Shown here: one piece after another, positions 172 through 33,060 of the stretch | Layout: each line of letters begins with the position of its first letter | Numbering within the stretch: the stretch's first letter is position 1 | Position numbers and translations under genes: made by a program | Source of the DNA: Ectothiorhodospira shaposhnikovii | Lineage (GTDB): Bacteria; Pseudomonadota; Gammaproteobacteria; Ectothiorhodospirales; Ectothiorhodospiraceae | DNA length: 64,000 nucleotides | NCBI RefSeq assembly: GCF_022227765.1 | Contig: NZ_JAJMLZ010000012.1 | Coordinates: forward strand, 1-64,000 | Direction: 5' to 3' | Notes under the pieces: model-generated | Seen by the model: the letters and a program-made list of their open reading frames with translations, nothing else | What the model was told of the DNA's origin: nothing | The model's database searches: none

Positions 172-480
172 AACGCCGGGAAGCATTGCTCAAGAAGCTG
201 TTCACGCCCAACACCTGGGCTATCTATCTCCCAGGTGGCAGAGGAAGAAGGGATCAGCGCGGCCACTCTGTATCTCTGGCGTAAAAATGCCTGTGATGAT
301 GGCCAGCACTGCCTGAGAATGGGGCGATCAGGGAGGGCAAGATGCCCGAAGCTGGGAGGACAAGCCGCACCAGTTGCGGCAGAAAGACCGTGACACCCGC
401 TGGACCAAGAAGCACAAAAGGACCTTTTACGGCTACAAGAACCAAAATCTAATGGTTTTAGAGATTATCACTGGTCGACA
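172..480 (+). pseudogene. Chimeric transposase debris (IS3-type OrfA and IS5-type DDE pieces)
   Basis: Two unrelated transposase scraps abut. The first, around 220-300, reads ISQVAEEEGISAATLYLWR, the helix-turn-helix of IS3-family OrfA proteins. The second starts near 355 in another frame and reads DRDTRWTKKHKRTFYGYKNQ, typical of the catalytic part of IS5-family transposases. Neither has a full-length frame, a start in context or visible terminal repeats. I infer a decayed insertion hot-spot at the left edge of the polysaccharide region. The family assignments rest on short motifs only. Confidence 0.6.
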
Positions 481-814
481 GAATAGCCTCTTCCCAAGCG
501 GCAAAAACTGAATCCGGATTAAATAACGGTAAGTCTATAAACGCATTTTCTGCGAACGTCTGTCGCTTTGCTGGATTCGATAAAAGATCTGAGAGAGCAG
601 CAGACAACCCCCTTGCATTTAGAGGCTCTACTAATAGTCCATTCACTTCATGACGTACTAGTTCGGAGGGTCCAACTATATCGAAACTTATCACCGGCGT
701 TCCAAGTGAAAACGACTCAATCACAACGAGACCAAAGCCTTCGAAACGTGAGGACAAGACAAAAATCTGTGCGGATGCATAGTCTGCAACAACATCGTAT
801 ACAATCGATGCCAA
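458..814 (-). pseudogene. Truncated GT4-family glycosyltransferase, C-terminal part
   Basis: The 118-residue frame carries the nucleotide-sugar-binding half of a GT-B (GT4) glycosyltransferase: a segment ADYASAQIFVLSSRFEGFG, then VVIESFSLGTPVI, containing the usual E-x7-E signature. A full enzyme has about 350-400 residues, so the acceptor domain is missing. A TAA stop lies a few codons upstream of the TTG used as start, beside a run of seven A residues, so frameshift decay is possible. It lies between transposase debris and a sulfotransferase in AT-rich DNA and is most likely a nonfunctional remnant of a glycan cluster. Confidence 0.7.
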
Positions 815-967: not shown

Positions 968-1618
968 CTATTCAAAACTATAATTAAAAGCACTGATATC
1001 ATGAGCGTAAAGCTGCTGCACAATATCGATCATCCCGGGATTCAAGTATGCATTCCGAAAGTCGTACCTGCTATCTTGTGTGACATTCGACCTAGGAAGC
1101 TTTAATGAGCGGCCCAGCTTATTCTCTACTGCCTTTATATCGACTTCAAGATCCTCCATCTTTCCCAAGTAGTCTACAATGACTTCCTGCGTGCACTCAG
1201 GCTCACAAACAAAACGGGTCTGCGGCTGAAACACGTAATCTGCCTTATGCAAATCCTGATAAACGAGCCACTCCTGCAGAAAGCGCTCAAAGGTCGAAAA
1301 TTCGGGTATTTGATATCGTTCAGGATGGGCTATACCCATTGAGTCTGTACGACCAACCTTCGCGAAACGATAGGCAGAAAGCAATCTGTCCCAAGGATTT
1401 CTTACCACAGAAAAAACAAATGAACGACTGTACAACCTCGGAAACCTTGACCTAATCTCTACTGCGGTGTAATGCCCGATGGTACGCCCATAGAGCGCTT
1501 TGTTGATGCTGGTCCCGGCTGCCTTTGGGACATGCACAAAAACAACTTTCTCACGACTCCAGTAAGGATAGCGTCGATATAAATTTAAATTTTTACGTAA
1601 ATACCCCATCATGTGCAT
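968..1618 (-). CDS. Sulfotransferase family 2 protein
   Basis: A 216-residue protein with the two PAPS-binding motifs of carbohydrate sulfotransferases. The 5'-phosphosulfate loop is VFVHVPKAAGTSINKAL near residues 26-42, and the 3'-phosphate motif is SVVRNPWDRLLSAY near residues 70-83. The family transfers sulfate from PAPS to sugars. Beside a flippase and glycosyltransferase debris, it probably modified an exported polysaccharide. The start has a plausible upstream AAGG. Base composition is visibly more AT-rich than the later EPS genes, suggesting acquisition by transfer. The acceptor cannot be read from the sequence. Confidence 0.85.
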   Translation of the reverse strand: MHMMGYLRKNLNLYRRYPYWSREKVVFVHVPKAAGTSINKALYGRTIGHYTAVEIRSRFPRLYSRSFVFSVVRNPWDRLLSAYRFAKVGRTDSMGIAHPERYQIPEFSTFERFLQEWLVYQDLHKADYVFQPQTRFVCEPECTQEVIVDYLGKMEDLEVDIKAVENKLGRSLKLPRSNVTQDSRYDFRNAYLNPGMIDIVQQLYAHDISAFNYSFE

Positions 1619-2091
1619 AAGTCAACCTTTTTTATCTGAAGGGCACCTCGAAAGATTAACCCACCGGAGCATCACAATGGCGAGCCTCCCACCCTGATGT
1701 ATTTTCTCCATCTAATCCGGATTCCGTGACCTAAGACGCAGTTAAGCCCTGCTGTAGAAACCGAATGATGCAATTTTAATCGCATGGTGAACTGGCAAGA
1801 CTTTTGATTAGGCTTACCAAGGTTCATGACGTGACTCGCAAGAGCCGTGCATGATCAAGTTGTGAAGATCATTCTTCTCACTAGTGCCGGAGGCAGGATT
1901 GTCTTGTAAAACTTGGGACAAGAACTCAAGTAGGCAGTCTATCTGTAATGAGTGACGGCACAGACATAATGATTCATGCATTTCCAGTATGCATAGAAAA
2001 TAATATGGCGCTCCTGAGGACCTCATTGTCTTTTCATTGAATCTGCTGCTGATCATCTGTCTCGTCTTCCCCTTCCATATCTGGAAGTTTT
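1619..2091. other. Intergenic stretch without a recognisable gene
   Basis: About 470 bases of comparatively AT-rich DNA between the flippase and the sulfotransferase. An 80-codon minus-strand frame (1814-2056) exists, but it has no recognisable motif or convincing ribosome-binding site. I see no terminator or repeat. Confidence 0.4.
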
Positions 2092-3471
2092 TTATAAGGT
2101 GCGATTTTTAGAAACTCCCGAGTGCAAGCCTTTATTGGGTCCGATTGCAACACTCTCAATGCCCAGCCTTTTAAACACATAATATCTCAGGATCATGTTC
2201 CAGATCAGGAGTGTCATAGCAGTGGAAATTGCCGCACCATTTAGGCCGAATGGAGGGATCAGCACAAGATTCATAACAACATTACATACAGCTGCAATCG
2301 CTACGCCTCGTACCGTATCTCGCTCGTGCCCAGTCATGTTCAGCAGCATACCCACTGAACCCATGGCAGCATTAATAAGCTGTCCGATAGCCAGGATACC
2401 GAGTGCTAAAACACCAAGGCGATACTCAACCCCAAAAAGCAACTCTAGCAATGGCCCGCCAAACACTACCATCACGAGGACCGGGGGAAGAGCGAGTAAT
2501 AGAATAATGCGCGCGCTCCTTGTAACCAATCGTTGTAGCCGCGCCAAGTCATTCTGCGCGTACAAGCGGGCAAAATGTGGTTGCAGTACTTGATTCATGG
2601 CGTCCAGGCCGAACACAACCAATGTAGCCACCTGGAGGACAATGCGGTAAACACCGACCTCTTCGTCGGTTCGAATCGTGCCCAGCATGATTATGTCGGT
2701 ATGGGAATTAATAAGGTGCAGTCCCGCAAGCATAGCGAGCGGCACAGCAGCACGGCGCCAATAAGCCGATTCATACTGGGGCTGCGGGTTTGCACGTAGC
2801 GCTCTCGGTCTAGCGCGTAGGAGCAATACAACTCCTACCAAAAAAGCCGCTAACGCCGCTAATCCGTGCAAACCCATTACGCTGGCCGGCGTCAATACCT
2901 CTGCGTTCCACCACCACACGACCGCCAGAAGCATGGCGAGGAGAAGCCCGGGGCGCAGTATGCTCTCCGGCAGTTGTCCCAGGACAACACGACGCAGCCC
3001 CCTGAGTGCCGCCCCGCGCACATTCCCCAGCGCGATTAATGGCACCAGCGCAAACCCTACTACCAAGGTCTGCCAGCGTTGATCACCTAGCCATTCGCTG
3101 CCCAGCCAGAATGCCATTCCCCCGAGCGTCACCACTACTACAGAAAAAAGGGTTACGAAGAGGTTGCTCCATCGCCAGAGGCCCCGCATGAGTCCCCAGT
3201 TGACGTTCGCTTGGGCCTTGGCGGTTTCTCGCACGACAAGCTGCGGCAACCCGACCTGTGCGGGGATGGCTAGCAGCATGATTAGCGATAGAACGAACGC
3301 ATAAACACCGTAGCCTTCCGCACCTAGAGTCCTGGCCAGCACGATAGCTGTAACGAAAGCTAAGGCTACACTGGCAAGCTTGACGACCATGCTCCCTGCG
3401 CCGCCTCGGATCAGTTGCTGCCGCAACGTTGCCGTCACATATTTACGGTCGTCCAAGCAGTTCTCAGTCAC
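2092..3471 (-). CDS. Wzx-like polysaccharide flippase (MOP superfamily)
   Basis: A 459-residue integral membrane protein with about 12-14 hydrophobic segments, opening with a basic stretch and LVLARTLGAEGYGVYAF near residues 43-60. That pattern, transmembrane helix 1 followed by LG.EGYG.Y, is typical of O-antigen/teichoic-acid flippases. It would flip lipid-linked repeat units across the inner membrane. It follows a truncated ABC-transporter gene on the same strand, and a sulfotransferase and glycosyltransferase remnant lie downstream. This places it in a surface-polysaccharide cluster. Length is normal for the family. The substrate cannot be inferred. Confidence 0.85.
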   Translation of the reverse strand: MTENCLDDRKYVTATLRQQLIRGGAGSMVVKLASVALAFVTAIVLARTLGAEGYGVYAFVLSLIMLLAIPAQVGLPQLVVRETAKAQANVNWGLMRGLWRWSNLFVTLFSVVVVTLGGMAFWLGSEWLGDQRWQTLVVGFALVPLIALGNVRGAALRGLRRVVLGQLPESILRPGLLLAMLLAVVWWWNAEVLTPASVMGLHGLAALAAFLVGVVLLLRARPRALRANPQPQYESAYWRRAAVPLAMLAGLHLINSHTDIIMLGTIRTDEEVGVYRIVLQVATLVVFGLDAMNQVLQPHFARLYAQNDLARLQRLVTRSARIILLLALPPVLVMVVFGGPLLELLFGVEYRLGVLALGILAIGQLINAAMGSVGMLLNMTGHERDTVRGVAIAAVCNVVMNLVLIPPFGLNGAAISTAMTLLIWNMILRYYVFKRLGIESVAIGPNKGLHSGVSKNRTL

Positions 3472-3506
3472 GGTATGAGCGTCAAAGATGAGGGCAACAC
3501 AACAGG

Positions 3507-3851
3507 CTACTCGCTGAGACTGTAATGGCGCATCTCGATGAAACGGTTCATCACGTAATGGGTGAGGATGCGGAACGCGGCGGAGAAGAGCATGAGGGCG
3601 AAGATGGCGCCGCCCAGGGCCATGAGAAAGCCCTGGGTGCTGGTGAAGCGCAGGCCTTCGTAAAGACTGGAGAGGATAGCGTTGGTGTACACCACCTCGG
3701 GATTACCGAGCACGGCCAGGAAGGGCATGATGGACGCCACGCCGGCGGTTTCCAGCAGGGCCATGAGGATGACCATGGCCAGCACGAGGCTGCCCCGGCG
3801 GCGTTCTCGGGGGGTGAGCAGGGCCAGGGCCTTGGAGAACACTGTGATCAA
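3507..3851 (-). pseudogene. N-terminal stub of an ABC transporter permease/ATPase
   Basis: Only about 114 residues remain. They show an amphipathic start, VFSKALALLTPRERRR, then a first membrane helix with LLETAGVASIMPFLAVLGNP and a second helix. This is the beginning of an exporter-type half-transporter of the PglK/MsbA-like kind found in glycan clusters. The rest of the membrane domain and the entire nucleotide-binding domain (about 450 residues) are gone, and the flippase start lies only 35 bases beyond the stop. I chose the TTG at 3851 because homology-like sequence begins there. I infer that recombination replaced the rest of an older cluster with the flippase-sulfotransferase segment. 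Confidence 0.75.
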
Positions 3852-3899
3852 GGTGTGGGGTCCGGGTTCATGTGGGCGGCTGTTGTGGGGGCTTTCAGG

Positions 3900-3911
3900 C
3901 ACGCTACCGCC
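3900..3911 (-). promoter_or_regulatory. ops element (RfaH recruitment site)
   Basis: The minus strand reads GGCGGTAGCGTG, identical to the core of the E. coli operon polarity suppressor element. It lies 48 bases upstream of the ABC-transporter stub that heads the flippase cluster, in the direction of transcription. A short inverted repeat, GCACG...CGTGC, brackets it. Two RfaH/NusG paralogues are encoded elsewhere in this window. The match and position are seen directly. That it recruits one of those factors is inference. Confidence 0.75.
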
Positions 3912-4059
3912 ATCCCCGTGCACCCTTGAGTGCAAGGAGTTACCTGCCCCGTGGGCGTTTGCAAGCCCTGTGGTGCGGGTCGGCGGCTGTCATGCAGCCC
4001 GTATCTTTCATCATCGGGGGGAACTGCGAGGTAATTTCCCGGCGCATAGCTCCATCACG

Positions 4060-4197
4060 GGGTTGATCACGCACTCGTCCAAGCGCTGTCTTGCCGGAGC
4101 CATTCTCCCCAATACAAAGTGGCAGCCGTGGACCGAGAGGCACTGCGCAGTGCCCCCACACGCGGTAATTTTCGAGGATGACCTGGCGGAGTTTCAC
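4060..4197 (-). pseudogene. Fragment of an AAA/OLD-like ATPase coupled to the chaperone gene
   Basis: A GTG at 4197 overlaps the stop of the SecB-like gene (GTGA), giving tight coupling. About 40 residues follow with VILENYRVWGHCAVPLGPRL and a Walker A motif, IGENGSGKTAL, as at the start of RecF/OLD-type ATPases. Resemblance to such ATPases then stops and frames diverge. A complete family member has several hundred residues. It looks like a fourth gene of the toxin-antitoxin-chaperone operon lost by deletion. Confidence 0.6.
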
Positions 4198-4736
4198 TTG
4201 GTGGGCTGACAGGATTCTGATGCTTCGTTGGAGTCGCGAGCCTTGAGCATATACATGGGAATGGGGATGGGGGGGATACCCATACGGGCACACGTGCCTT
4301 GTACGTATTCCCGCCAGTAAGGCCAGATGTGATAGCCCACGTTGTAGCGCGAAAATTCTTCAAGCGCGGGTTGCAGCGTTTCGTCTTCGATGCCGTCACG
4401 GATGTCGTATTCGGCGCAGAAATCCGCCGTGATCTCCAGGTACACGTCCTCTTCATCCACTGGGGCAGTTTCCGTCACACTGGCATTGTTCACAAGACGG
4501 ACACCGGCCTGGAAGTGGCACATGGCTATGCGGCGCGGGATCGCTTTCGTCTGCTCCTCAAAGCCCAGGATATCGATCCTGGCGCCCGGCTTGCCACGGA
4601 ACTGGGGTGTGAGATCCAGTTCATCATCAAGATACGGCGGAAGAACGCCCTCCTTGCAGCGGATGTGGCCGCCGCGCAGGTGAACCGCGCGGATACTCAA
4701 GGCCTTGGTGGCGATCTCGATGAGTGAGCGATCCAT
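4194..4736 (-). CDS. SecB-like chaperone of a toxin-antitoxin-chaperone module
   Basis: A 180-residue acidic protein. Its C-terminal part, YHIWPYWREYVQGTCARMGI followed by PPIPIPMY, matches the SecB fold's closing pattern: an aromatic-rich helix containing a PY.RE..-type segment, then a G..P.....P strand. The middle holds the alternating beta segments expected for SecB. Dedicated SecB-like proteins are known third members of some HigBA-type TA systems, where they fold and stabilise an otherwise unstable antitoxin. It starts 3 bases after the stop of an XRE antitoxin gene, itself overlapping a RelE/HigB-like toxin gene. Canonical secB is shorter (about 155 residues) and usually sits next to grxC/gpsA, not here. 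Function follows mainly from context. Confidence 0.75.
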   Translation of the reverse strand: MDRSLIEIATKALSIRAVHLRGGHIRCKEGVLPPYLDDELDLTPQFRGKPGARIDILGFEEQTKAIPRRIAMCHFQAGVRLVNNASVTETAPVDEEDVYLEITADFCAEYDIRDGIEDETLQPALEEFSRYNVGYHIWPYWREYVQGTCARMGIPPIPIPMYMLKARDSNEASESCQPTK

Positions 4737-4739
4737 GCT

Positions 4740-5129
4740 TCAGGCTGCGGTCTTCCAGCAATCCATGGGATGGAGCACGTTGCCGGTTTCCGTGTAGCGG
4801 ATCCTGGGGTGCCCACAGGTGAATTTTTCAACGGGCCTGAATTCCCAGCCGTCCGCCTCGGCGCCATTCAGGGAGAAATCAGGGCTTTTGCCCAGGGCGA
4901 AGCAGATATCCGCCAGGGTGCGCAGGGTCATGTTGCGGGATCCACTCAGGATCTGGGAGATGTAGCCTCTGGTGGTGCCCATGCGGGCTGCCAGGTCGGC
5001 CTTGTTGACTCCAGCCTCTTCCATTTCCTGCCAGAGTGCCTCCGTGACTTGGGTAATGAGCCGTTCCTGGGCTACTAGCCGGGCGTTTTCCGGGCTTTCG
5101 GCAGCCCAACGGTCCAGAAAATCGGTCAT
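4740..5129 (-). CDS. XRE-family antitoxin (HigA-like) with C-terminal extension
   Basis: 129 residues. The helix-turn-helix spans about residues 39-90 (NKADLAARMGTTRGYISQIL, then MTLRTLADICFALG). It would bind the operator upstream of the operon and neutralise the upstream-encoded toxin. After the DNA-binding domain comes a tail of about 38 residues with W, F, Y and L residues (GWEFRPVEKF and onward). In chaperone-controlled antitoxins such a hydrophobic tail is the chaperone-addiction segment recognised by the SecB-like partner. Its start overlaps the toxin stop by 4 bases (ATGA), and the chaperone gene begins 3 bases after its stop. The role of the tail is inference. Confidence 0.8.
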   Translation of the reverse strand: MTDFLDRWAAESPENARLVAQERLITQVTEALWQEMEEAGVNKADLAARMGTTRGYISQILSGSRNMTLRTLADICFALGKSPDFSLNGAEADGWEFRPVEKFTCGHPRIRYTETGNVLHPMDCWKTAA

Positions 5130-5536
5130 GTCTGTGACTCCTCAATCTTTCGCCAGTTCTCGATCACGCGATGCGTGTCCTTTTGAGCGAGCTTTTGTCC
5201 CTTCTTGAAAGCGAAGTGACTGACGTAAAACACCCCACCATGGCGATTTGAGTACCATCCATAGGCCCGGATCTTGTCCACCTTGATGGCATAGAAGTTC
5301 TTCCCATTGGGTAAGTCGCCTTCGGTATTCCAGTAATCCGGCGACCTTAGCCTGCCTGTGTCGGCCAATTGCCTGCGGCGGTTATAAAAGCGCGCGAGCC
5401 AGCTGGCATGCTTGCCGGCCTGGATTGACGAGAGGGCCTCCTGCAGACTCGGCGGCATCCAGGCCTCAGCACCGCTCCCCGGCGGCGGTTGTTCGCAGTA
5501 GCGAATGGTCAGCTTGGCACCTTGGTACTCTTCCAT
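5126..5536 (-). CDS. RelE/HigB-superfamily toxin
   Basis: 136 residues. The core segment FYAIKVDKIRAYGWYSNRHG and the following FYVSHFAFKKGQKL and HRVIENWRKI have the strand-strand-helix layout of HigB/Gp49-type RelE toxins, which cleave mRNA at the ribosome. The N-terminal part (to about residue 60) is less typical. The ATG at 5536 is preferred over an upstream TTG because the palindromic operator ends just before it. It is the first gene of a toxin-antitoxin-chaperone operon, in the toxin-first order typical of HigBA. Catalytic residues cannot be fixed by eye. Confidence 0.8.
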   Translation of the reverse strand: MEEYQGAKLTIRYCEQPPPGSGAEAWMPPSLQEALSSIQAGKHASWLARFYNRRRQLADTGRLRSPDYWNTEGDLPNGKNFYAIKVDKIRAYGWYSNRHGGVFYVSHFAFKKGQKLAQKDTHRVIENWRKIEESQT

Positions 5537-5539
5537 GGA

Positions 5540-5557
5540 GTTTACCAATAAGTAAAC
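5540..5557 (-). promoter_or_regulatory. Candidate autoregulatory operator of the TA-chaperone operon
   Basis: A perfect inverted repeat, GTTTAC-6 bases-GTAAAC, lies 3 bases upstream of the toxin ATG. Its position and size fit binding by the XRE antitoxin. It is the only notable palindrome in the promoter region. Confidence 0.55.
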
Positions 5558-6010: not shown

Positions 6011-6388
6011 TCAGCGCCCTGGCTTGCGTGGTTGTACGGCCTTGTCCGACTCTGTTTTCAAGTCGCTGCCCAACTCTTTTTTCAACACCTCAATCTCCCG
6101 CTGAATCGCCTCGCATTCCTTTTGCTTGCGCGCCAGGAAGGCGCGGGTGATGTGCAGCTTTTCCGTGAGGCCCTTGGGGGTGAGCAGGTAGGCGTAGGCG
6201 CGTTTGTTCTGGCTGTTGCGGAAGTTTTCGGCCTTCACCAGGCCCTTGTCGATGAGGGCGCGCAGGCTGTAGTGGGTGGCGCCCAGGCTCACGCCCAGCG
6301 CTTGTGCCAGTTCCCGCTGGGTGAGCTGGGGGTTGTCGGCCAGCAGACGCAGGAGCCGCAGGCGAATGGTATCGCTGTGGGTGTCCAA
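6011..6388 (-). CDS. MarR-type EPS-associated transcriptional regulator
   Basis: 125 residues. A winged helix-turn-helix runs over about residues 5-75 (LLRLLADNPQLTQRELAQAL, GVSLGATHYSLRALIDKGLV, with a wing containing NKRAYAYLLTPKG). A charged coiled segment follows (ARKQKECEAIQREIEVLKKE), then a basic tail. The layout matches the small MarR-like regulators described as EPS-associated, which occur beside exopolysaccharide and exosortase-type loci. It lies between the TA-chaperone operon and the Septu-like pair, downstream of the EPS genes on the same strand. A degenerate ops-like element 47 bases upstream suggests that transcription reaching this gene may depend on an RfaH-type factor. Confidence 0.85.
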   Translation of the reverse strand: MDTHSDTIRLRLLRLLADNPQLTQRELAQALGVSLGATHYSLRALIDKGLVKAENFRNSQNKRAYAYLLTPKGLTEKLHITRAFLARKQKECEAIQREIEVLKKELGSDLKTESDKAVQPRKPGR

Positions 6389-6435: not shown

Positions 6436-6447
6436 CATGCTGCCGCC
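6436..6447 (-). promoter_or_regulatory. Degenerate ops-like element upstream of the MarR gene
   Basis: The minus strand reads GGCGGCAGCATG, two changes from GGCGGTAGCGTG. It is embedded in a block (about 6433-6460) that matches the block around the exact ops site at 3897-3924 at most positions. Both sit 47-48 bases upstream of a start codon. The paired sequence and spacing are direct observations. Function is inferred. Confidence 0.4.
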
Positions 6448-6741
6448 ATCTTCGTGCATGTTTGGGGGATGCATGAAGGAAGCGGGTCCGGTCCCTGGGG
6501 ATTCAGGGGTGGTCGCTCGACCGCGGGTGCGGTTTTGGTTGTTCAGGGTTTGAACGGTACTGTTTTTTTTGGGGGGTTTCAAGGGGGAATTTGGGGGTGG
6601 GCCTTGAGGGGTTCATCATGGCCGGTATTTCTGAATGGCGTGGCCGGGGTGCGGTGGCCCGGTAGCCGATGAACAGGATATCGTGGCGCTTGTCCCCGAG
6701 CATTCGTTTATGGGGCTGTTGGGTGCTCTAAGTGGGGGCTG
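6448..6741. other. Non-coding gap downstream of the HNH gene
   Basis: Together with the leader at 6389-6447 this gap is about 350 bases, GC-rich, with T- and G-runs near 6568-6580. I see no gene, terminator or repeat in it. Confidence 0.4.
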
Positions 6742-7482
6742 TCATAACAATTCTGGTTGGTCATGTCGGAGAACATCTTCGGCAATAGGGCCGAAAAATT
6801 GTCGTGTCATGCTGAAAAAGGATTTGAGTTTTCCAGAAACAGGGGAAAGATCCACTTTCGCCAGGCTGTGCAGATCCATTTCGTTATCCAGGTGTTCGTT
6901 AAACAATTCGCTCAGCTCATCCCACCACTGTTTGCGTTCGCTCTGCAAAAATTGGCTGTTGAGATTCAGAACATCGATGGTGTACTGGGCCCGCTCGCTG
7001 TCCCACTCATTCAGATTTTCTTTGGGCACAATGCGTCCATCTGAAAGGTAAGAGAAGAATCTGGAACAATCGGGCTGATGGGGTGAGACAAATCTTTGTA
7101 TATCCACAGCACCTTGTTTACCCGGTGCGTGCCCCCCGAAAAGATCAGTTGGCACACCGGCTGCCTGCTGGCGGCCTTTTAGAACCCCGATACGCTGTGC
7201 ATCTATGGCACTGGCCGCGAGATTACTGTAATCAAAAGTCCGTCCCGGGTTCTGGCTTTTGTTCTCAACATGCTCGATGTGAAAGCCGATACCATAGGCG
7301 TTCGCGTCTAATTCGCTATAACAGCACAGATGGTATTGCTCATCCAGCAGATATTTCATCACTTCCGGTTTGTGATTGAAGCGACTCCATCGGCTTGTGG
7401 CTTGTGTAGTGGTTTTTGGAGGCGTTTGGTTTGCCTGATTCAGATGATAACCACCATTTCCCTGTTTTTTTATTTCCCTCAT
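6742..7482 (-). CDS. HNH endonuclease-like effector of a Septu-like pair (PtuB-like)
   Basis: 246 residues. The HNH region is near residues 48-95: YHLCCYSELD, then FHIEHVENKS with the conserved HxxH-type general-base segment, then FDYSNLAAS. This is the layout of the TIGR02646-like HNH proteins that partner RecF-type ATPases in Septu and retron-associated defence. The usual CxxC before the HNH is CCYS here, so one zinc-binding cysteine appears substituted. It overlaps the ATPase stop by 4 bases (ATGA), which implies co-translation. It would act as a nuclease released on phage infection. The defence role rests on gene pairing, not on a test. Confidence 0.75.
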   Translation of the reverse strand: MREIKKQGNGGYHLNQANQTPPKTTTQATSRWSRFNHKPEVMKYLLDEQYHLCCYSELDANAYGIGFHIEHVENKSQNPGRTFDYSNLAASAIDAQRIGVLKGRQQAAGVPTDLFGGHAPGKQGAVDIQRFVSPHQPDCSRFFSYLSDGRIVPKENLNEWDSERAQYTIDVLNLNSQFLQSERKQWWDELSELFNEHLDNEMDLHSLAKVDLSPVSGKLKSFFSMTRQFFGPIAEDVLRHDQPELL

Positions 7483-8780
7483 CTCTGAAGTGCCTTCTGC
7501 CTTTCAATACTGCGCTGCAGGCGCTGCAGTTGGGCGTGTTTTTCACCCAGAATCTCTTCCAGGTGAGATCTCAAGGCTTTTGCTTCACTACTTTCATAAA
7601 GCCCTTGATCCACCAATTCGGTCAGGCGCTGAAGGTCTTTTTTCTCGGCAACCGGTGGCTGTGGATCCACCAACATCACACCCTGTAGCACGGTATTGCT
7701 CGGTTCACCATAGGTTCTGGCCAGCGGTCGCTCTGCTGTCGCGCCACCCGCGGTATCACTTTGGATAACACGGATATTTTCCCGCCGAATGGTACTCAAT
7801 ACCTGGGGGCTATGTGTGGTTACAACAAACTGGATATGGGGAAACGCCTCGCGCAGGGTTTGAATGACTGTTTGTTGCCACTCCGGATGCAGGTGCATGT
7901 CCACTTCGTCAATCAAGGCGATACCTTGTGTCTCCTGCTGTGCCCTTGCGCCCATTTGGGGGTTGAGTTTTGCGCAACGCCACGCCATGTCGGCGACCAG
8001 AGAGACCATGGCACGTACACCGTCGCTGAGTTGCGAAACGGGTAACACGCCCATATCCGGGTGGGTCATGGCCAACTCTTCATGTTGAACACTATAGTGA
8101 AAGCCACTCCAACCCTCGTTTTTCAGCACTTTATCCACCGTGTTCCGGATGCCTTCAATCTGGTCCGGCAGTGTGTAGTTTTCGTAGGCATCCATGCTTT
8201 TCTGTTGCAATACGGCCAGTGTGGCTTTTGTCATCCACTGTTGAACCTGGGTAAAACTGGATGCGGAGCTAAAACAGTCTTCGTAACCCATGGTGCGGCT
8301 GGTGCTGAGCACTGCTTTACGGCTGATGTTTTTGTGAGCATTCCACAGACGACCGGAGCTGTAGTACGCCAATAGTGGTAAGTCGACCGGCTCCAGTCCG
8401 CGCACACGGTCCATGAGCGCTTTACCCATGTTTGTCAGCTCGGCGGCACCTTTAACCGTCGTTCGCCCTTTAGCTCCCAGCTCACGGACTACGGGGGCAT
8501 TCAAGCAGTCCAGGGTTGCTTCAATACGAACCGGGAAAACTTGCTCATTATCCGAGCGGCCTTGAAGACGCTGGTATCTGGCATCACGGTATTCGATGGA
8601 CTTGGATTTACCCAAATCAAAAGCTCCAACAAACGTGCCCAGTGCCACCGTGGCTGCATCCAGCACGCTGGTTTTTCCCTGGCCATTCCTGGCAGCCAAA
8701 ACAGTCAGTTCTGGATGAAAAGTAACCTCCAGGCTTTTAAAGCGCCGGAAATTAGTCAGTGTCAGCGTGTCGAGCTTCAT
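7479..8780 (-). CDS. RecF/SMC-like AAA ATPase of a Septu-like pair (PtuA-like)
   Basis: 433 residues. It begins LDTLTLTNFRRFKSLEVTF and has Walker A AARNGQGKTSVLDA near residues 31-44, where Ala replaces the first Gly of the usual G.NG.GKS/T. An ABC-type signature, QLSDGVRAMVSL, is near residue 257. Walker B is GIALIDEVDMHLHPEW near residues 300-315, with the switch histidine in VVTTHSPQVLS. The C-terminus is a charged coiled coil. PtuA-type ATPases form an oligomer that holds an HNH partner inactive until triggered. The gene directly precedes and overlaps the HNH gene. A standalone OLD-like ATPase is the alternative, but no TOPRIM domain is visible. Confidence 0.75.
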   Translation of the reverse strand: MKLDTLTLTNFRRFKSLEVTFHPELTVLAARNGQGKTSVLDAATVALGTFVGAFDLGKSKSIEYRDARYQRLQGRSDNEQVFPVRIEATLDCLNAPVVRELGAKGRTTVKGAAELTNMGKALMDRVRGLEPVDLPLLAYYSSGRLWNAHKNISRKAVLSTSRTMGYEDCFSSASSFTQVQQWMTKATLAVLQQKSMDAYENYTLPDQIEGIRNTVDKVLKNEGWSGFHYSVQHEELAMTHPDMGVLPVSQLSDGVRAMVSLVADMAWRCAKLNPQMGARAQQETQGIALIDEVDMHLHPEWQQTVIQTLREAFPHIQFVVTTHSPQVLSTIRRENIRVIQSDTAGGATAERPLARTYGEPSNTVLQGVMLVDPQPPVAEKKDLQRLTELVDQGLYESSEAKALRSHLEEILGEKHAQLQRLQRSIERQKALQR

Positions 8781-9154: not shown

Positions 9155-9760
9155 CTATGGAGCGTGCGTAATGGCGTCGATGGGGACAGTGACGGGGCTG
9201 TGCTGGCCCAGGAGGGTCATCATCACGGTGACGCGGTCCTTGGCGCAGGTGGAGATGATGCCAGTGTGGCCGGCCAGGGGGCCGTCGGTGAGGCGGACGG
9301 TGTCGCCGGGCCTGAAAAGGCTGGCGGCGGTGTCCGGGTCCAGGTGCTGCAGGGTCTGTTCCAGGGTGTGGAGTTCCTGGAGCAGACGGGGGGCGATGGT
9401 GGCCGGGGTGTGGCCAAAGCAGATCACTCGGCTGACGCCGCAGGTGCTGCGGACGGGGGCGATGCCCTGCTGGGGGTGGGCGGGGCTGAAGAAGGCGTAG
9501 CGCGGGAAGTAGACCTCGCGGACGCGGGTCCAGCGGCGTTGGCGACGTTTCCAGCAGGCGTGCAATGGCAGGTAGGTATGGTAGCCCTGCTCCGCCAGGT
9601 GGCTGACGGCGATGTGTTCCTGGCGCGGCTTGGTCTGGACCACATACCAGGGGGTGCCGGTGTTGAAGTCCCGAACAAAGGTGCCGATGCCGGGATCACG
9701 CACGGAGGCGCGGGTGTCGAAGCGCCGTTGGGTCGGGCGGGTTTGCGTAGCGGTCGGCAT
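9155..9760 (-). CDS. RfaH/NusG-family antitermination factor (first copy)
   Basis: 201 residues. After an unusual 35-residue N-terminal extension comes the NGN domain (PWYVVQTKPRQEHIAVSHLA, then GYHTYLPLHACWKRR and FPRYAFF). A KOW-type C-terminal domain near residues 145-200 contains FRPGDTVRLTDGPLAGHTGI. Specialised NusG paralogues bind RNA polymerase at ops-like sites and suppress termination in long polysaccharide operons. It is the last gene of the wza-wzc-wecA operon and its ATG overlaps the preceding stop (TGATG), so it probably acts on its own locus. An exact ops site lies at 3900-3911 in the same cluster. Confidence 0.85.
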   Translation of the reverse strand: MPTATQTRPTQRRFDTRASVRDPGIGTFVRDFNTGTPWYVVQTKPRQEHIAVSHLAEQGYHTYLPLHACWKRRQRRWTRVREVYFPRYAFFSPAHPQQGIAPVRSTCGVSRVICFGHTPATIAPRLLQELHTLEQTLQHLDPDTAASLFRPGDTVRLTDGPLAGHTGIISTCAKDRVTVMMTLLGQHSPVTVPIDAITHAP

Positions 9761-11367
9761 CAGGTGTCTCCCTCCGTCTTGATGCGTTCCTGTGCGGCCA
9801 GCCCTTGGGGGCGGGTTTTGGGAAGTGCCTGGGGATCAGGGTGGGAGAGCCAGTCCATGTCCCGTACCTGGCCGTCCACGATCAGGCCGCGCTGGACGAA
9901 GGCGTGGGCTTCGAAAACCAGGGTGCAGGCATGGTGGATCCGCCGGTCGCGGCAGCGCTGGTTGGCGTTGCGGGCCAGGTTTTCCTGGCGGGGGTCGTTG
10001 TCGCGCTTGCGGGCCACCAGGGCGCGGACGGTCAGGTCCTGGTGGATGCTCAGGTTGTTTTTCAGGCGCCGGGTGTAGCGGGTGACGGCGTCGGAGTTGG
10101 CTTCTTCGTCCTCCAGGGGGATCTCCACCAGGGCGTAGCGGATGCCCGCCTGGGGGGTGCCGGGATTGTGTTCATAGATCCGCAGGCAGAAGGTTTCGCT
10201 GGGGTCCAGTTCCTCGGCCAGGGCGCGCATGAGGGCCTTGGGGTCGCGGGCAGCCTTGTCGCCGATGTAGATCCCGGTGGTGGTCGCCGGCACCAGTGTC
10301 ATCCGGGTATGCAGGCGGCGCAGCGTGGGGACGACCCGCCAGGGGCGGACGGTGAGGTAGAAATACCCCGCGAACAAGGCCAGGAAGCCTGCCAGCATGA
10401 GCCATTCCGGGACACCCGCATGGAGCAGCACCAGGCCGGCGGTGGCAAGCACCAGATGCAGCAGGGTGATGAACGCCACTGCGTGATCCACCCGGAATCC
10501 GGCCCGCTGCAGCAGGTGATGCAGGTGGCTGCGGTCGGGGGTGAAGGGGGAACGGCCCAGCCACAGGCGGCGCAGGATCACGCTCAGGGTATCCAGCAGG
10601 GGGATGACGAACAGAGACAGGGCCGCCACCGGCTGGATCACACTTCCCTCCCCCTGGGACAGGCCCACCAGGATCCAGGCAAACAGCAGGCCCAGCAGCA
10701 TGCTGCCGTTGTCGCCCATGAATACCCGGGCGCAGGGCTGACCGTGATGGCGCAGGTTGAAGTACAAAAATCCCGCCAGTCCGCCCAGCAGGCACAGCAC
10801 CAGCATGTAGTAAGGAGAGCCGCCGGCCAGGGCGATGAGCACGGCGATCAGGGCCATGGTGACGAAGGACAGGGTGCCCGCCAGACCGTCGATGCCGTCC
10901 ATCATGTTGAGGGCATTGATGCCGCCCACGGTGGCAAAGAGGGTGAACGGGATGGCCAGCATGGCCAGGTGCAGGGGGTGGCCGAGCAGGAGCGGCCCCA
11001 GGTCGATCAGGATCACGCCGGCGCCCAGGGTCATGACCAGGGCGGCGCCGGTCTGGACCAGCAGGCGAAGGCGAAACCCCAGCCGGATGAGGTCGTCGGT
11101 GAGGCCGGTGATGAAGATGGCGAACGCCGCCGTGGCCATGAGGAGCCACTGGAAGCGCAGTTCCGGGTGGGTCTGGTCCAGGATGACCACCCCCAGGGCA
11201 AAGGCACTGAGGATGCCGAAGCCCCCAACGAAGGGAGTGCTGCGCTTGTGGGCCTTGTGGTCCCCGGGATGGTCCACCAGACCATAGGCCTCTGAAAAGG
11301 CCATGGCCAGTCGGATGGCGGCCACGGAGAAGAGCGCGGCGGCCCCAATGATCAGCAAATCCAGCAC
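9760..11367 (-). CDS. Undecaprenyl-phosphate sugar-1-phosphate transferase (WecA/MraY family) with C-terminal extension
   Basis: About 535 residues. The first 340 or so form a WecA-like polytopic domain with the aspartate-rich LNMMDGIDGLAG, the catalytic region CARVFMGDNGSMLLG, and the HLHHLLQRAGF loop. It transfers a sugar-1-phosphate onto undecaprenyl phosphate, initiating repeat-unit synthesis at the inner membrane. The remaining 190 residues are a soluble extension (RVVPTLRRLHTRM onward) absent from classic WecA, with a possible regulatory role. I chose the GTG at 11367 because an excellent AAGGAG lies just upstream; a longer GTG frame to 11403 has no such site. The gene is flanked by wzc and rfaH-like genes in the same operon. 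Confidence 0.85.
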   Translation of the reverse strand: MLDLLIIGAAALFSVAAIRLAMAFSEAYGLVDHPGDHKAHKRSTPFVGGFGILSAFALGVVILDQTHPELRFQWLLMATAAFAIFITGLTDDLIRLGFRLRLLVQTGAALVMTLGAGVILIDLGPLLLGHPLHLAMLAIPFTLFATVGGINALNMMDGIDGLAGTLSFVTMALIAVLIALAGGSPYYMLVLCLLGGLAGFLYFNLRHHGQPCARVFMGDNGSMLLGLLFAWILVGLSQGEGSVIQPVAALSLFVIPLLDTLSVILRRLWLGRSPFTPDRSHLHHLLQRAGFRVDHAVAFITLLHLVLATAGLVLLHAGVPEWLMLAGFLALFAGYFYLTVRPWRVVPTLRRLHTRMTLVPATTTGIYIGDKAARDPKALMRALAEELDPSETFCLRIYEHNPGTPQAGIRYALVEIPLEDEEANSDAVTRYTRRLKNNLSIHQDLTVRALVARKRDNDPRQENLARNANQRCRDRRIHHACTLVFEAHAFVQRGLIVDGQVRDMDWLSHPDPQALPKTRPQGLAAQERIKTEGDT

Positions 11368-11460
11368 GTTCTGTCTCCTTGGAGCATGTCCGTTCTCCGG
11401 CACTCCGACGGCGGGGTCGAAGGTGACTGCATAAATCCCTGACAGGGGCGCTTGATCAGG

Positions 11461-13704
11461 TCATGACCGATAGCCGTAGCGATACACGTAGCCGCGATAC
11501 CCGTAGCGGTAGCGCTGGCGATTGACGTCCAGGTCGTTGAAGATCACCCCCTTGACGTTCACCCCGGCCTGGGACAGGCGCTTGACCGACTGTTCGATTT
11601 CCTGGATCGGATGCCGCCCTGCCCTGGCCACCAGCAAGGTGGCGCCGCCCAGGTTGCGGGCGATGATGGCGGCGTCGGACACGGCCAGGATGGGCGGGGC
11701 ATCGACGATGACGATGTCGAACATGCCCGAGAGGGTGTCCAGCAGGCTGGTGAACCGCTCGTGCATGAGCAGTTCCGAGGGGTTGGGCGGGATCTGGCCG
11801 GTGGTGACTACCTTGAGTCCGTCCTGGGGCGTGGCGCGGATGATGCGCGGCAGTTCGATGGTGCCGGCGATGTATTCGGTGACGCCCCCTTCCCGGGAGA
11901 TGGAAAACTCCCGATGCATGTGGCCCTTGCGCAGGTCGGCATCCACCAGCACCACGGTCTTGCCGGACTGGGCCAGGACCACGCCCAGGTTCTTGGAAAT
12001 GAAGCTCTTGCCCACGCCCTGGGAGGGGCCGGTGATGAGCAGCGAGCCACGGGAGGAGTCCAGCAGGGCGAAGTGGATGGTGGTGCGCAGGCTGCGCAGG
12101 CTTTCCACGGCATCGTCGGTGGGGCGGGTGATGGCCAGCAGTTCACCGGAGATGCGGCCGCGACGGGATTGCCGGGAGATGTCCTCTTCCGCCTTGCTGT
12201 GGGGAATGGTGGCGTACACGGGCAGGCCCAGGTGTTTTTCGATGGTTTCCGGGTCTTCCACCACCACCCGCAGGGCGCGGATCAGGAAGACCAGGCCCAG
12301 ACCGGCCATCAGGCCCAGGAGCACGCTGATGAGCAGGATCCGCTGCTGGCTGGGGGCCACCGGGCCACGGGAGACCACGGCGGAATCGATGATGCGGGCA
12401 TCGCCCACGGTACCGGCCCGGGCCACGCGCAGTTGCTGGGCGCTGTGGAGCAGGCTGGTGTAGAGGGCGGTGGAGACTTCCACGTCCCGGCGCAGGCGCA
12501 GGGCGGTCTGCTGGGTGTCCGGCAGTTCGGAGACCTGGCCTTCGAGCTGATTGCGCCGGGTGCTCAGACGGCGGATCTGGGCATCCAGGGCCACCATGCG
12601 GGGGTGTTCCGCGGTATAGCGCTGGCGCAGTTCTTCCCGCTGCTGCTGGAGGCGGATGATGTCGTTATCCACCTCGACGATCGATCCCAGCACACTGCGG
12701 GTTTCCATGGTGAGGTCCACGGAGCCGCGGGTCTGGCGGTAGTTGTTGTAGGCGGCCTCGGCGGCGTCGAGCTGGCTCTTGAGCAGGGGCAGCTGGGATT
12801 CCAGGAAGACCAGAGTGTTTTCCGCTTCGGCGGAACGGTGTTCCACGTTCTGGCGCACGTAGGCGTTCATGATCTCGTCCAGCACCGTGGTCAGGCTGGC
12901 GCGGTCGGGGCCACGCAGGGCCAGTTCCAGCACGCCGGACCCCCTGCCCCGTTCCCGGACCTCGAACTGGCCGCGCAGGGCATCGATGGCGGCACCCCGG
13001 CTGCGACGGCCGACGATGAATTCCGTGCCGGGGCGGGCATGGAGTTCGGAGACGAAGATCTGGATGTCGCTGCCGGTGGCGGGTTCCCCCACCCGGCCGG
13101 TGACCAGGATGCGGCTGTCCCGATCCCGCAGGGTGTACATGCCGTTCTGGCCGGTGAGCAGGGTCATGCCCTGGCCGATGCGGCTGGGGGGCACTTCCAG
13201 GCTTTCGATGCGGATGCGCTCGCCGCCCCAGGCGTAGCGTTCCATTCCGAACCGGGCTCCGGCCAGTTCGCTGCCGCCGTGGCGTCGGGCGAAGGCATCG
13301 CCGAATACGGGGGGGTAGGCCGGCCGAGCGAAGATTTCCAGCCCCAGGCGGTCCACCACCCGGCCCAGGATCATGCGCGAGCGCAGGATTTCCAGTTCGG
13401 CGCTGACGGTAACGCTGTCAGACATGATGGCCTGCACATCCTGCAGGGCGGAGAGGCTCTTGCCCTTTTCCTCCACCTGCAGCAGGGCATCGGACCGGTA
13501 GATGGGGGTGGCGGTGAAGGCGGAGAAGATGCCGCCGCACAGGGCCAGGGCGGTAACGGCCGCGATGAGCCACTTGTACTGCAGGACCGTGCCGATCAGT
13601 TCGCCGATGTGGATGGTGTCGCCGTCGTCTTCCACCGGCGCGGCGGGCGGATGGCCCACGCGGGGTGGTTCGTTGACGGGGGTATGCGGCGGGGGACGGT
13701 TCAT
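11461..13704 (-). CDS. wzc: Wzc-type polysaccharide co-polymerase / tyrosine autokinase (first copy)
   Basis: 747 residues. A Wzz-like chain-length domain has a first membrane helix near residues 50-70, a long periplasmic part with coiled coil, and a second helix near residues 455-475 (RILLISVLLGLMAGLGLVF). The cytoplasmic BY-kinase follows: Walker A GPSQGVGKSFISKNLG, Walker A' VVLVDADLRKG, Walker B IVIVDAPPIL. The tail is tyrosine-rich (RYRYGYRGYVYRYGYRS), the autophosphorylation cluster. It controls polymer length and export with the outer-membrane Wza partner. The ATG overlaps the wza stop (TGATG). A Wzb-type phosphatase that could reverse the phosphorylation is at 17858. Confidence 0.92.
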   Translation of the reverse strand: MNRPPPHTPVNEPPRVGHPPAAPVEDDGDTIHIGELIGTVLQYKWLIAAVTALALCGGIFSAFTATPIYRSDALLQVEEKGKSLSALQDVQAIMSDSVTVSAELEILRSRMILGRVVDRLGLEIFARPAYPPVFGDAFARRHGGSELAGARFGMERYAWGGERIRIESLEVPPSRIGQGMTLLTGQNGMYTLRDRDSRILVTGRVGEPATGSDIQIFVSELHARPGTEFIVGRRSRGAAIDALRGQFEVRERGRGSGVLELALRGPDRASLTTVLDEIMNAYVRQNVEHRSAEAENTLVFLESQLPLLKSQLDAAEAAYNNYRQTRGSVDLTMETRSVLGSIVEVDNDIIRLQQQREELRQRYTAEHPRMVALDAQIRRLSTRRNQLEGQVSELPDTQQTALRLRRDVEVSTALYTSLLHSAQQLRVARAGTVGDARIIDSAVVSRGPVAPSQQRILLISVLLGLMAGLGLVFLIRALRVVVEDPETIEKHLGLPVYATIPHSKAEEDISRQSRRGRISGELLAITRPTDDAVESLRSLRTTIHFALLDSSRGSLLITGPSQGVGKSFISKNLGVVLAQSGKTVVLVDADLRKGHMHREFSISREGGVTEYIAGTIELPRIIRATPQDGLKVVTTGQIPPNPSELLMHERFTSLLDTLSGMFDIVIVDAPPILAVSDAAIIARNLGGATLLVARAGRHPIQEIEQSVKRLSQAGVNVKGVIFNDLDVNRQRYRYGYRGYVYRYGYRS

Positions 13705-14945
13705 CACTGACGCCCCCCGAACAGGGGATAGCGCACGCCGCTGACGGTGTTCAGCAGGCTCCAGGTGGGCTGGATGTTGGCGATCACCCGGTTGAAGCGA
13801 ACGATGTCGGCCACGTCCACATAGACGATGTCACGGGGCTGCAGGTGGAAGCGTTCCGCCAGCAGCAGGGCGTCGGGGGATTTGGCGTTGAGATGGTAGA
13901 GCCGGGGTTGCCCGCCCTCCTCGTCACGCATGACGAAGATCCAGCCGGGGTCGGAGCGGTCCTGGTCGACGAAGCCGGCATCGCTGAGCACTTCGGCCAG
14001 GGTGGCGCGGCGACGGTTCATGACGTAGGAGCCGGGGTTTCTGACCTCGCCCAGGACGAAGATCTTGTTGAACTGGCTGTCGAGCACGTTGACGATGTCG
14101 CCGTGCTGGAGCAGCGGGTTCTGGGTGATGTCGCCGTCCTCGTACAGGGCCTGGACGTTGACCCGGTAGGTGGCGCCGTCGCGGGTGAGCAGCACATTGC
14201 CGTGGTCGGCCTGATCACTGAAGCCGCCGGCGCGGTTGACGGCTTCCAGCAGGGTCATGGGGATGTCGTCGATGGCCTGGATGCCGGGTGAGGCCACCTC
14301 CCCCACCACGTAGACGCGCTTGCTGCGAAAGGAGACCACGCGCACGTCCAGTTGGACCCGTTCGATCACCCGGGAGAGGTGTCGGATGAGGACCTGGCGC
14401 AGTTCGCGCACGGTCATGCCGGCCACTTCGATCACGCCCACGTAGGGATAGAAGATGGTGCCGTCCTCGGCCACCAGGGTGCCGGCCTGTTCGGCGGAGC
14501 GGAAGGAGCCGGCGGGGATGGTCAGTTCCGGGTGGTCCCAGACGATCACGCTGATGATGTCGCCGGGGCCGAGCCGGTAGTCCTGGTGTTGCAGGCCGAA
14601 ATCCGGCAGGGCGGCGCCCATGACCTGGGTCTGGGCGGCGGCGGCGCGTCCGGGGAAGGCGCCGATGCCGTTGTTGAGCTGCTGGATGATCAACTCGGCG
14701 GTGATGGGCCGCACGCTGATGTTGGCGGCGGTGAGTTGGTCGTCCTGGATCACCGGCAGGGGGATGGATGAGGTATCCCGCATGCCGCTGGCGGTGGTAC
14801 CCGGCGCCACGGCACAAGCGGACAGGCTGAGGATCAGCCCGATCGGGATGACGAGGGCAAGCCAGGCTTTCCAGACCCGACCATGGGTATTCCCGGGCTT
14901 GACCCACGAGGTCGCCGCCTGCCCGGGGCAGTGTCTAAGCCACAT
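13704..14945 (-). CDS. wza: Wza-type outer-membrane polysaccharide export lipoprotein (first copy)
   Basis: About 413 residues. After a long basic lead comes a hydrophobic signal with lipobox LSAC near residue 44. The polysaccharide-export (PES) domain follows (YRLGPGDIISVIVWDHPEL), then SLBB domains (KRVYVVGEVASPG and KIFVLGEVRNPGSYVMNRRR). It forms the octameric channel for exopolysaccharide. I prefer the ATG at 14945, which has GGAG eight bases upstream, over the ATG at 14960. It is the first gene of the wza-wzc-wecA-rfaH operon. A candidate sigma-54 promoter lies about 100 bases upstream. Confidence 0.9.
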   Translation of the reverse strand: MWLRHCPGQAATSWVKPGNTHGRVWKAWLALVIPIGLILSLSACAVAPGTTASGMRDTSSIPLPVIQDDQLTAANISVRPITAELIIQQLNNGIGAFPGRAAAAQTQVMGAALPDFGLQHQDYRLGPGDIISVIVWDHPELTIPAGSFRSAEQAGTLVAEDGTIFYPYVGVIEVAGMTVRELRQVLIRHLSRVIERVQLDVRVVSFRSKRVYVVGEVASPGIQAIDDIPMTLLEAVNRAGGFSDQADHGNVLLTRDGATYRVNVQALYEDGDITQNPLLQHGDIVNVLDSQFNKIFVLGEVRNPGSYVMNRRRATLAEVLSDAGFVDQDRSDPGWIFVMRDEEGGQPRLYHLNAKSPDALLLAERFHLQPRDIVYVDVADIVRFNRVIANIQPTWSLLNTVSGVRYPLFGGRQ

Positions 14946-15042
14946 CCAAGCACTCCGCATTGAGATGGTTCCATCAGGCTATGTCGGGACTGCGCCTTGC
15001 CCACGGGTCACCGGGTTTCCGGTTGTGCCGTCGTTGGCCTGG

Positions 15043-18311: not shown

Positions 18312-18830
18312 TCAGGCAATCCTTCGGATGTCTTCCAGGTTGATGCGGGCGCGGGTCTGTTTGCCTAGCCAGTCCAGGAGGATGAAGACGCGGGTTTCTC
18401 CGGAAAGGGTTTCGAAGATGCCTTCCAGACCTTCCAGCGGGCCTTGGGTGATGACCACCCGCTGGCCGGGTTGGGGGAGATCCGCCGGCAGGTGATGACA
18501 GCCGGTGGCCGGGTCTTCCCTGCCCCGCAAAAGGCTGATGATGCCGGCATCGATGTACGGGTATTGCTCGCCGAAACGGACCAGGCTGGTGACGCCCACG
18601 GTGGAACGGATGGGTGCAATGCTCTGGTCCTCGTGGCTTGGGGCGGCGAACAGGTAACGGGGAAACAGGGCCTCTTCCAGCTCACGAATCCGCCCCGCGC
18701 GACGAACGCGACGCTTGAGTCGCGGCAGGTAGATCCGGTAATCCTGCGCCCGCAGTCTCGATGCGGCCAGGGCTTCCTGCCTGGGTTTGCAGTAGACCAG
18801 ATACCAGTGATTCAGCATAACGGCATGCAT
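18312..18830 (-). CDS. RfaH/NusG-family antitermination factor (second copy)
   Basis: 172 residues. The NGN domain opens NHWYLVYCKPRQEALAASRL, with YRIYLPRLKRRVRR and LFPRYLFAAP, and SIAPIRSTVGVTSLVRFG as in RfaH. The KOW segment is QPGQRVVITQGPLEGLEGIF. It lacks the long N-terminal extension of the copy at 9155 and is closer in size to RfaH. The ATG at 18830 has AGGA upstream. It stands convergent to the Wzb-like gene and near the second wza-wzc pair and the giant-protein operon, which may be its targets. I found no exact ops site upstream of those genes. Confidence 0.85.
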   Translation of the reverse strand: MHAVMLNHWYLVYCKPRQEALAASRLRAQDYRIYLPRLKRRVRRAGRIRELEEALFPRYLFAAPSHEDQSIAPIRSTVGVTSLVRFGEQYPYIDAGIISLLRGREDPATGCHHLPADLPQPGQRVVITQGPLEGLEGIFETLSGETRVFILLDWLGKQTRARINLEDIRRIA

Positions 18831-18999
18831 TGTTCCTACACGAACATTGAATCCAGGATAGCGGCTACTTCTCACCCGATGACGGCAACATCATCCATAT
18901 TGGTTGATTTTTACTTCCATGGCGGACTCAAATTCACTATCTCGGGGAGCGACCCAGGGTGGACCATGATGGCTAAAACCGATTGGAGTTTTGTGCCTG

Positions 19000-27974: not shown

Positions 27975-28285
27975 GAAGTCATCTCCCTATTTACTGAATT
28001 TCGGCTTTATATGAATGACTCTATGTGAATGACTCTACCGCCCCCCTCGGCGGGCTGTGGAACAAAAGCCACCATCCCGGATGGTTGTTGCCTTTGGCAC
28101 TCAATCGGTCGACGAATTGGAGGCAACGTGTCCCATGCAACCTGTCCAGGGGTTGCCCGGATCGCAGCCCCCTCCACATATAGAAACCTCCACTTCGGAT
28201 GCTTTGCCGCCATCACCGGAACTCTAAATGGTCCGGCAAGGATAGAATCCTCAACCTTGTAATCATCCTTCAAAGAGGCGGGCTC
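27975..28285. other. Divergent promoter region between giant-protein and wza2 operons
   Basis: About 310 bases with two close copies of TGAATGACTCTA (28012-28036) near the giant gene's start. I found no GG-N10-GC sigma-54 spacing on either strand and no ops element. No gene is supported. Confidence 0.4.
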
Positions 28286-29419: not shown

Positions 29420-29454
29420 AAGCTTGGTCAAATCCAGAAAGCGACTGACGACTC

Positions 29455-33059: not shown

Positions 33060-33060
33060 G

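Follow-up and report, generated by a model that had tools for sequence, protein, structure and literature searches.

A probable ops element and two RfaH-type factors in an exopolysaccharide locus of Ectothiorhodospira shaposhnikovii

In the window, i.e. the stretch of 64,000 nucleotides of the Ectothiorhodospira shaposhnikovii contig NZ_JAJMLZ010000012.1 that was analysed here, the motif GGCGGTAGCGTG at 3900-3911 on the minus strand (ops1) is in all probability a genuine ops element, at which RNA polymerase would pause and take up an RfaH-type factor; it stands in the leader of the distal section of an exopolysaccharide locus. This reading is favoured because the flanks of the motif fit a profile of leader sites, homologous leaders are found in relatives, and such sites co-occur with RfaH. 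The 12 bases are those of the ops12 oligonucleotide of E. coli in the accessible text of PMC5995543, which bears out the original prediction of an exact match to the E. coli ops core; the minus strand was implicit there. The features to which the text refers are the following, from upstream to downstream along the minus strand:

18312-18875, minus strand: RfaH; TIGR01955 144.7 bits against a cut-off of 144.5, a narrow pass
13704-14960, minus strand: Wza-type export protein
11461-13707, minus strand: Wzc-type tyrosine autokinase
9760-11403, minus strand: WecA-like sugar-phosphate transferase
9155-9760, minus strand: NusG2, an RfaH-like NusG paralogue in the wza-wzc-wecA gene run; TIGR01955 111.9 bits, below the cut-off of 144.5
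6742-8780, minus strand: Septu-type defence pair (PtuA 7479-8780, PtuB 6742-7482) inside the exopolysaccharide gene run, between NusG2 and marR
6541-6555, minus strand: palindrome GTTCA-N5-TGAAC, 5' of ops2 and marR; candidate operator of the MarR protein
6436-6447, minus strand: ops2, GGCGGCAGCATG, a degenerate ops (T6C, G10A) before marR; the same in relative G002
6011-6388, minus strand: EPS-associated MarR regulator (marR_EPS, TIGR04176); 146.3 bits, passing the cut-off of 88
4740-5548, minus strand: small gene pair, a Cro/C1-type HTH protein and a partner without Pfam match; perhaps toxin-antitoxin
3940-4293, minus strand: remnant of an ATPase N-terminus with weak PtuA likeness, just upstream of ops1
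3914-3939, minus strand: a hairpin may form here in the RNA, ending 2 nt short of ops1 (-13.3 kcal/mol; base-shuffle P 0.005)
3900-3911, minus strand: ops1, GGCGGTAGCGTG, an exact ops element; its flank CCTGAAAGCCCC agrees with the extended consensus
3507-3851, minus strand: 114-codon 5' stub of an ABC transporter gene, PglK-like; the PglK-type resemblance is weak (24.1 bits)
2092-3471, minus strand: polysaccharide flippase (Wzx/MOP type, PF01943)
968-1618, minus strand: sulfotransferase (Sulfotransfer_2)
458-814, minus strand: fragment of a group 1 glycosyltransferase; the contig begins at window base 1

Sequence and flanks of ops1

Ops1 occupies a leader position and lies on the coding strand of the glycan gene run behind it, whose first gene is the ABC transporter stub. 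The TTG start of the stub at 3851 follows after a gap of 48 nt on the same strand, so that the predicted spacing and orientation hold, and behind it the flippase and sulfotransferase frames are open. An intact homologue of the ABC gene in relative G009 encodes 598 aa and is 85% identical over the stub. The bases for a C3:G8 hairpin of the non-template strand with a G4-A7 loop are present in ops1.

The frequency of the motif in the genome is uninformative: the exact 12-mer occurs in two copies against none for the reversed control, the 11-mer in three against five, and the other two 11-mer copies lie antisense to long frames; counts this near to chance level are no proof for ops1. It is thus the flanking context and not the number of motifs that sets ops1 apart. 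A flank profile of the six bases before and the eight bases after the core was trained on 21 sites whose genomes lie outside the family. It assigns ops1 a score of 8.19; of 20,000 random window positions, 0.045% score at least as high, and the two other genomic 11-mer copies have random-like scores of -11.8 and -9.6. Among 17 further exact 12-mers from relatives, which were hand-picked as not leader-like, 16 score below 0 and the best reaches 0.49 (P 0.066). The extended consensus has approximately AG or AT before GGCGGTAGCGTG and, after it, C or T, C, a pyrimidine, a purine and AA. In enterobacteria, the JUMPstart leader of 39 bp holds conserved sequence beyond the ops core.

The hairpin before ops is suggestive only. 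For ops1, a dinucleotide control is weaker than the base shuffles: the 50 nt including ops give a z of -1.16, and 25/200 shuffles fold equally well. In base-shuffle tests of the 30 nt that precede ops, 10/21 class sites have P below 0.1, compared with 0 to 4/21 at six other offsets; among nine family leaders, P is below 0.05 in four (ops1, ops2, G007, G009) and not in the other five.

A scan of the window found no ops with at most two mismatches before wza (13704-14960). An ops-like site, GGCGGTAGAGTC at 28031-28042 on the minus strand, precedes a frame of 2525 codons (20397-27974, minus strand) and was rejected on its random-like flank score of -7.0 alone; no site of this type occurs in the stretches around rfaH of G007 and G002, which may or may not include the 2525-codon gene. 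This frame lies near an HlyD-type gene (31752-33122) and may encode a giant exported protein. A second wza-wzc pair at 28199-31803 on the plus strand gives the window two exopolysaccharide export systems.

RfaH and NusG2

The genome encodes three members of the NusG family, an ordinary NusG outside the window and two paralogues within it. The two RfaH-type factors initially assigned to the window are indeed two NusG paralogues; one of them passes the RfaH cut-off, the other is only RfaH-like. Both keep K10, E48, F56 and T72. At the positions that contact ops, the window RfaH keeps K10 and has R for H20, A for R23 and V for R73; unlike E. coli RfaH, it thus lacks three of four ops contacts. NusG2 keeps K10 and H20 and has E for R23 and C for R73. 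R73 is absent in 9/11 class genomes that combine an exact ops with a full-length RfaH in the locus retrieved; residue 73 is L, F, I, P, K or H in these, and K10 is nearly invariant across the RfaH proteins compared. R73 as the key to the exact ops was therefore rejected, only 2/11 of these genomes having it. A partial second RfaH of G385 carries R73. AlphaFold models show a beta-type C-terminal domain for both window paralogues and no autoinhibited helical form; for fold switchers, such models depend on the alignment, and they do not tell an autoinhibited paralogue from a constitutive one here. The changed contacts and the lack of a helical form in the models are points against the favoured reading.

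It is rather doubtful, though a reading to be reckoned with, that ops1 is served by the cis-encoded NusG2 and not by RfaH. The NusG2 gene shares the gene run with the two ops sites and lies upstream of them; the protein has kept H20 besides K10, RfaH having lost H20, and R73 is missing from both. Its TIGR01955 score, by contrast, stays under the RfaH cut-off (111.9 vs 144.5), and G009 and G005 keep an exact ops before marR with only RfaH and NusG as matches. There are parallels for paralogues encoded within the operon on which they act: according to the accessible text of PMC7593976, this holds for UpxY, TaA and the Shewanella group CL7, and NusG2 likewise lies inside a wza-wzc-wecA run that it may act on. 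In contrast to the within-operon paralogues described there, the ops-type sites of the window lie after the NusG2 gene. In the same text, the recruitment modes of within-operon NusG paralogues are called unknown, and a helix-turn-helix neighbour is mentioned for one RfaH cluster; possibly, this adjacency is the same as that of the marR-rfaH pairs described below. In the close relative G002, the NusG2 gene is split over the ends of contigs C22 and C41 (parts 89% and 100% identical), which may reflect an insertion or a break in the assembly.

History of the locus

Relatives G007 and G009 have marR_EPS, a small winged-helix gene (TIGR04176), before their copy of the ABC gene, and the motif lies ahead of marR_EPS, exact in G009 and with one mismatch (T6G) in G007. 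The search for the motif in close relatives that keep the cluster, as originally proposed, was thus positive. Between ops and the ABC gene, marR_EPS is present in both relatives and missing at ops1; a composite leader of palindrome, ops and marR_EPS is the likely ancestral state at ops1.

The block behind ops1 is old. Window and G007 match at 94.6% identity over 885-1778 and at 90.9% over 1775-3876, which covers sulfotransferase, flippase and stub; G007 has extra DNA between sulfotransferase and flippase, and the homology found by blastn begins at 3876, 24 bp after ops1. The stub is cut at nearly the same codon in the window and in G007, both of which differ there from the intact gene of G009. 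The junction of stub and flippase is therefore old, and G007 has the stub-flippase-sulfotransferase block in common with the window. Of the original idea that the flippase-sulfotransferase segment was dropped into an ops-controlled position, the real ops survives, whereas a recent, private replacement does not agree with the presence of the block in G007 (91-95% identity). Two histories would explain the leader of the window: marR may have been lost from a unit of ops, marR and ABC gene, or the old block may have received an end that carried ops. G002 shows the end of NusG2, an ops2-type site, marR and then genes that, read by eye, resemble those of sugar-modifying enzymes; the window differs from it by the Septu pair (PtuA, PtuB) between NusG2 and ops2. 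Between marR and ops1, the window has the toxin-antitoxin-like genes and the ATPase remnant.

These rearrangements bear on the question of whether ops1 still works. The stub directly behind it and the run of the locus to the contig end count against a working element, and the region may be decaying. Ops1 could then be a true ops by descent that has ceased to work because marR and a portion of the locus are gone and little of the ABC gene is left. Such a relic, which we consider unlikely, would be in keeping with the truncated ABC gene, with the toxin-antitoxin-like genes, ATPase remnant and Septu pair that separate NusG2 from ops1, and with the outcome of two scans, in which neither a promoter-like site just upstream of ops1 (a crude scan) nor a TTCA-N5-TGAA palindrome upstream of it was found. 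It is opposed by the state of ops1 itself, which has its 12 bases and its flanks undamaged whereas ops2 lost T6 and G10, and by the open flippase and sulfotransferase frames behind it.

Co-occurrence of ops and RfaH

The genuine ops element favoured here gains further support from its distribution. In the family set of 47 genomes, 22 contain marR_EPS, and the ops scan covered 27 of the 36 matches, namely the non-fragmentary ones with a locus on record. With at most two mismatches, ops lies upstream of marR_EPS in 13/13 genomes with RfaH compared with 2/9 without (Fisher p 2e-4), namely G024 and G029, in which no RfaH was detected; in G017, one of two marR_EPS copies lacks ops and the other has it with two mismatches. 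Within the genus, none of the five RfaH-less genomes (G001, G003, G004, G006, G008) contains the exact 12-mer, and the RfaH-bearing ones have two copies (G000), one (G002), two (G005), none (G007) and three (G009); one copy each in G000 and G005 is not a leader site by its surroundings.

In the class set of 377 genomes, marR_EPS exceeds the cut-off in 58 (33 below the cut-off were unused), 55 of which were analysed, G000, G005 and G016 being left out as members of the family set. In the stretch around marR and on its strand, ops with at most one mismatch is found in 20/26 genomes with RfaH and in 1/27 without (G205; Fisher 2e-8). The two genomes with a weak RfaH (G274, G320), which have no ops match around marR, stand outside this 2x2 table and inside the 100 kb of the other-strand control, which yielded no ops in 102 kb with RfaH and four in 100 kb without, three of the four inside marR. 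In the 20 carriers, ops precedes marR in 14 and lies after its start, at 641-1058 bp, in six; none was found within the stretch around marR in 6/26 RfaH-bearing genomes (G127, G161, G298, G309, G376, G396). G348 has no detected RfaH, yet a two-mismatch ops site near marR, and a site in G378 lies 1.66 kb from marR with a flank that does not fit. In several class genomes, e.g. G404, G240 and G144, rfaH directly follows marR.

The association also appears independently of marR: the 15-mer GGCGGTAGCGTGYCY occurs in 40/91 genomes with RfaH (defined by an E of at most 1e-17) compared with 4/286 others (p 5e-24), and its reversed control in 5/91 vs 24/286 (p 0.5); without the window's family, the counts are 38/89 vs 3/282. 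In 51/91 RfaH-bearing genomes, the 15-mer was found nowhere. A marR_EPS-like frame on the same strand accompanies 16 of the 30 GGCGGTAGCGTGYCY sites fetched, the window's own included. All presence/absence tests treat the genomes as independent; the 20 class carriers span 17 family labels, and contrasts within labels point in the same direction in f100 and f47 and are less clear in f48 (G348).

EPS-associated MarR, its palindrome and ops2

In 48/56 class loci (27/29 without clear RfaH, 21/27 with RfaH), a TTCA-N5-TGAA palindrome is found in the 400 bp before marR_EPS, compared with 38/5600 shuffles, and it is situated 5' of ops in 11/11 class leaders that contain both. In the family, where 20 loci were scanned, 15 have it, including only 2/6 among the RfaH-less, ops-less loci. 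The palindrome persists in class loci that lack RfaH and ops, which makes it the stronger candidate operator of MarR; ops is taken as the RfaH element.

The opposite assignment, in which the conserved motif is a MarR operator or a constraint around the marR start codon and has no role for RfaH, is very improbable. It could explain why the motif often lies directly before marR_EPS, why its GTG runs in frame into marR in the copies of G031 and G023 (by eye) and why 4/6 RfaH-less, ops-less marR loci of the family also lack the palindrome. It does not account for the near absence of the motif from RfaH-less class genomes with marR_EPS (1/27), in which the palindrome persists, for the six RfaH-bearing genomes with ops 641-1058 bp downstream, past the marR start, or for the exact 18-base sites, of which there are at least 120, since a same-strand marR no more than 1.5 kb away accompanies only 12 of the 120 covered. 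A chance 12-mer, which the genome counts, no higher than random expectation allows, would permit, is hardly credible in view of the flank profile, the homologous position in relatives and the co-occurrence with RfaH.

The window thus contains two ops heads, ops2 with marR and ops1 without. The degenerate ops2 (6436-6447) with its own marR had been missed in the earlier description of this DNA. According to the accessible text of PMC5995543, all single-base changes made in ops apart from G2C weakened the action of RfaH in vivo, T6A being among the strongest defects; on the basis of these mutant data, ops1 should be stronger than both ops2 (T6C, G10A) and the G007 site (T6G), provided that the local proteins have not changed alongside. 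Multiple sites are also found elsewhere: three within 2.4 kb in G009, five within 24 kb in G031 and four within 14 kb in G023, with marR copies or fragments there. In G031 and G023, several near-identical ops-marR leaders with long repeats lie on the same strand in one region of 14-24 kb. The nearby frames tested in these two genomes include those of sugar-nucleotide dehydrogenases, epimerases, an aminotransferase and a flippase, with a beta-CASP nuclease in each.

As judged from these loci, ops is often part of a composite leader, new here, that consists of the palindrome TTCA-N5-TGAA, ops, marR_EPS and glycan genes and is sometimes repeated per locus. More tentatively, and as a conjecture that may well prove wrong, ops plus marR_EPS could be a portable regulatory head for glycan modules in the class: MarR at TTCA-N5-TGAA would decide initiation and RfaH at ops elongation, and repeated heads could serve as homologous landing pads for the exchange of sugar-coat modules and allow RfaH to be reloaded per module.

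Proposed function and relation to known systems

The likeness to the E. coli system, as far as described in the accessible texts of PMC5995543 and PMC2871177, comprises the same 12 bases, the leader position, the strand, an RfaH homologue and glycan genes behind the element. Following ops, the E. coli test template has CTTTTTT and the window CCTGAAAG (PMC5995543, accessible text). Unlike E. coli ops, ops is linked to marR_EPS and a palindrome in many relatives, and the window has two ops sites in one gene run. The accessible text of PMC7593976 names no ops sites outside enterobacteria, and the term ‘MarR’ is absent from its main text; a literature search, which missed most subscription papers and judged part of the matches by the titles listed, found no published link between RfaH/ops and the EPS-associated MarR.

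By analogy with E. coli RfaH, we infer pausing, recruitment and anti-polarity at ops1, which could proceed in the following manner: Transcription would reach ops1 from the wza promoter or from a nearer one. On arriving at 3911, RNA polymerase on the minus strand would pause at U11/G12, and the G4-A7 loop of the non-template strand would be exposed. RfaH (18312-18875) or NusG2 (9155-9760) may then be loaded at this loop, and the polymerase so modified would continue past the stub and transcribe the genes for flippase, sulfotransferase and glycosyltransferase without losses to Rho.

The same 12 bases, with at most one mismatch, track RfaH across at least 17 family labels, including RfaH proteins that lack R73, and many of these sites are linked to a MarR regulator that has a palindrome of its own. 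If this picture is true, the rule of ops recognition and a two-step control, with initiation governed by MarR and elongation by RfaH, would become directly testable.
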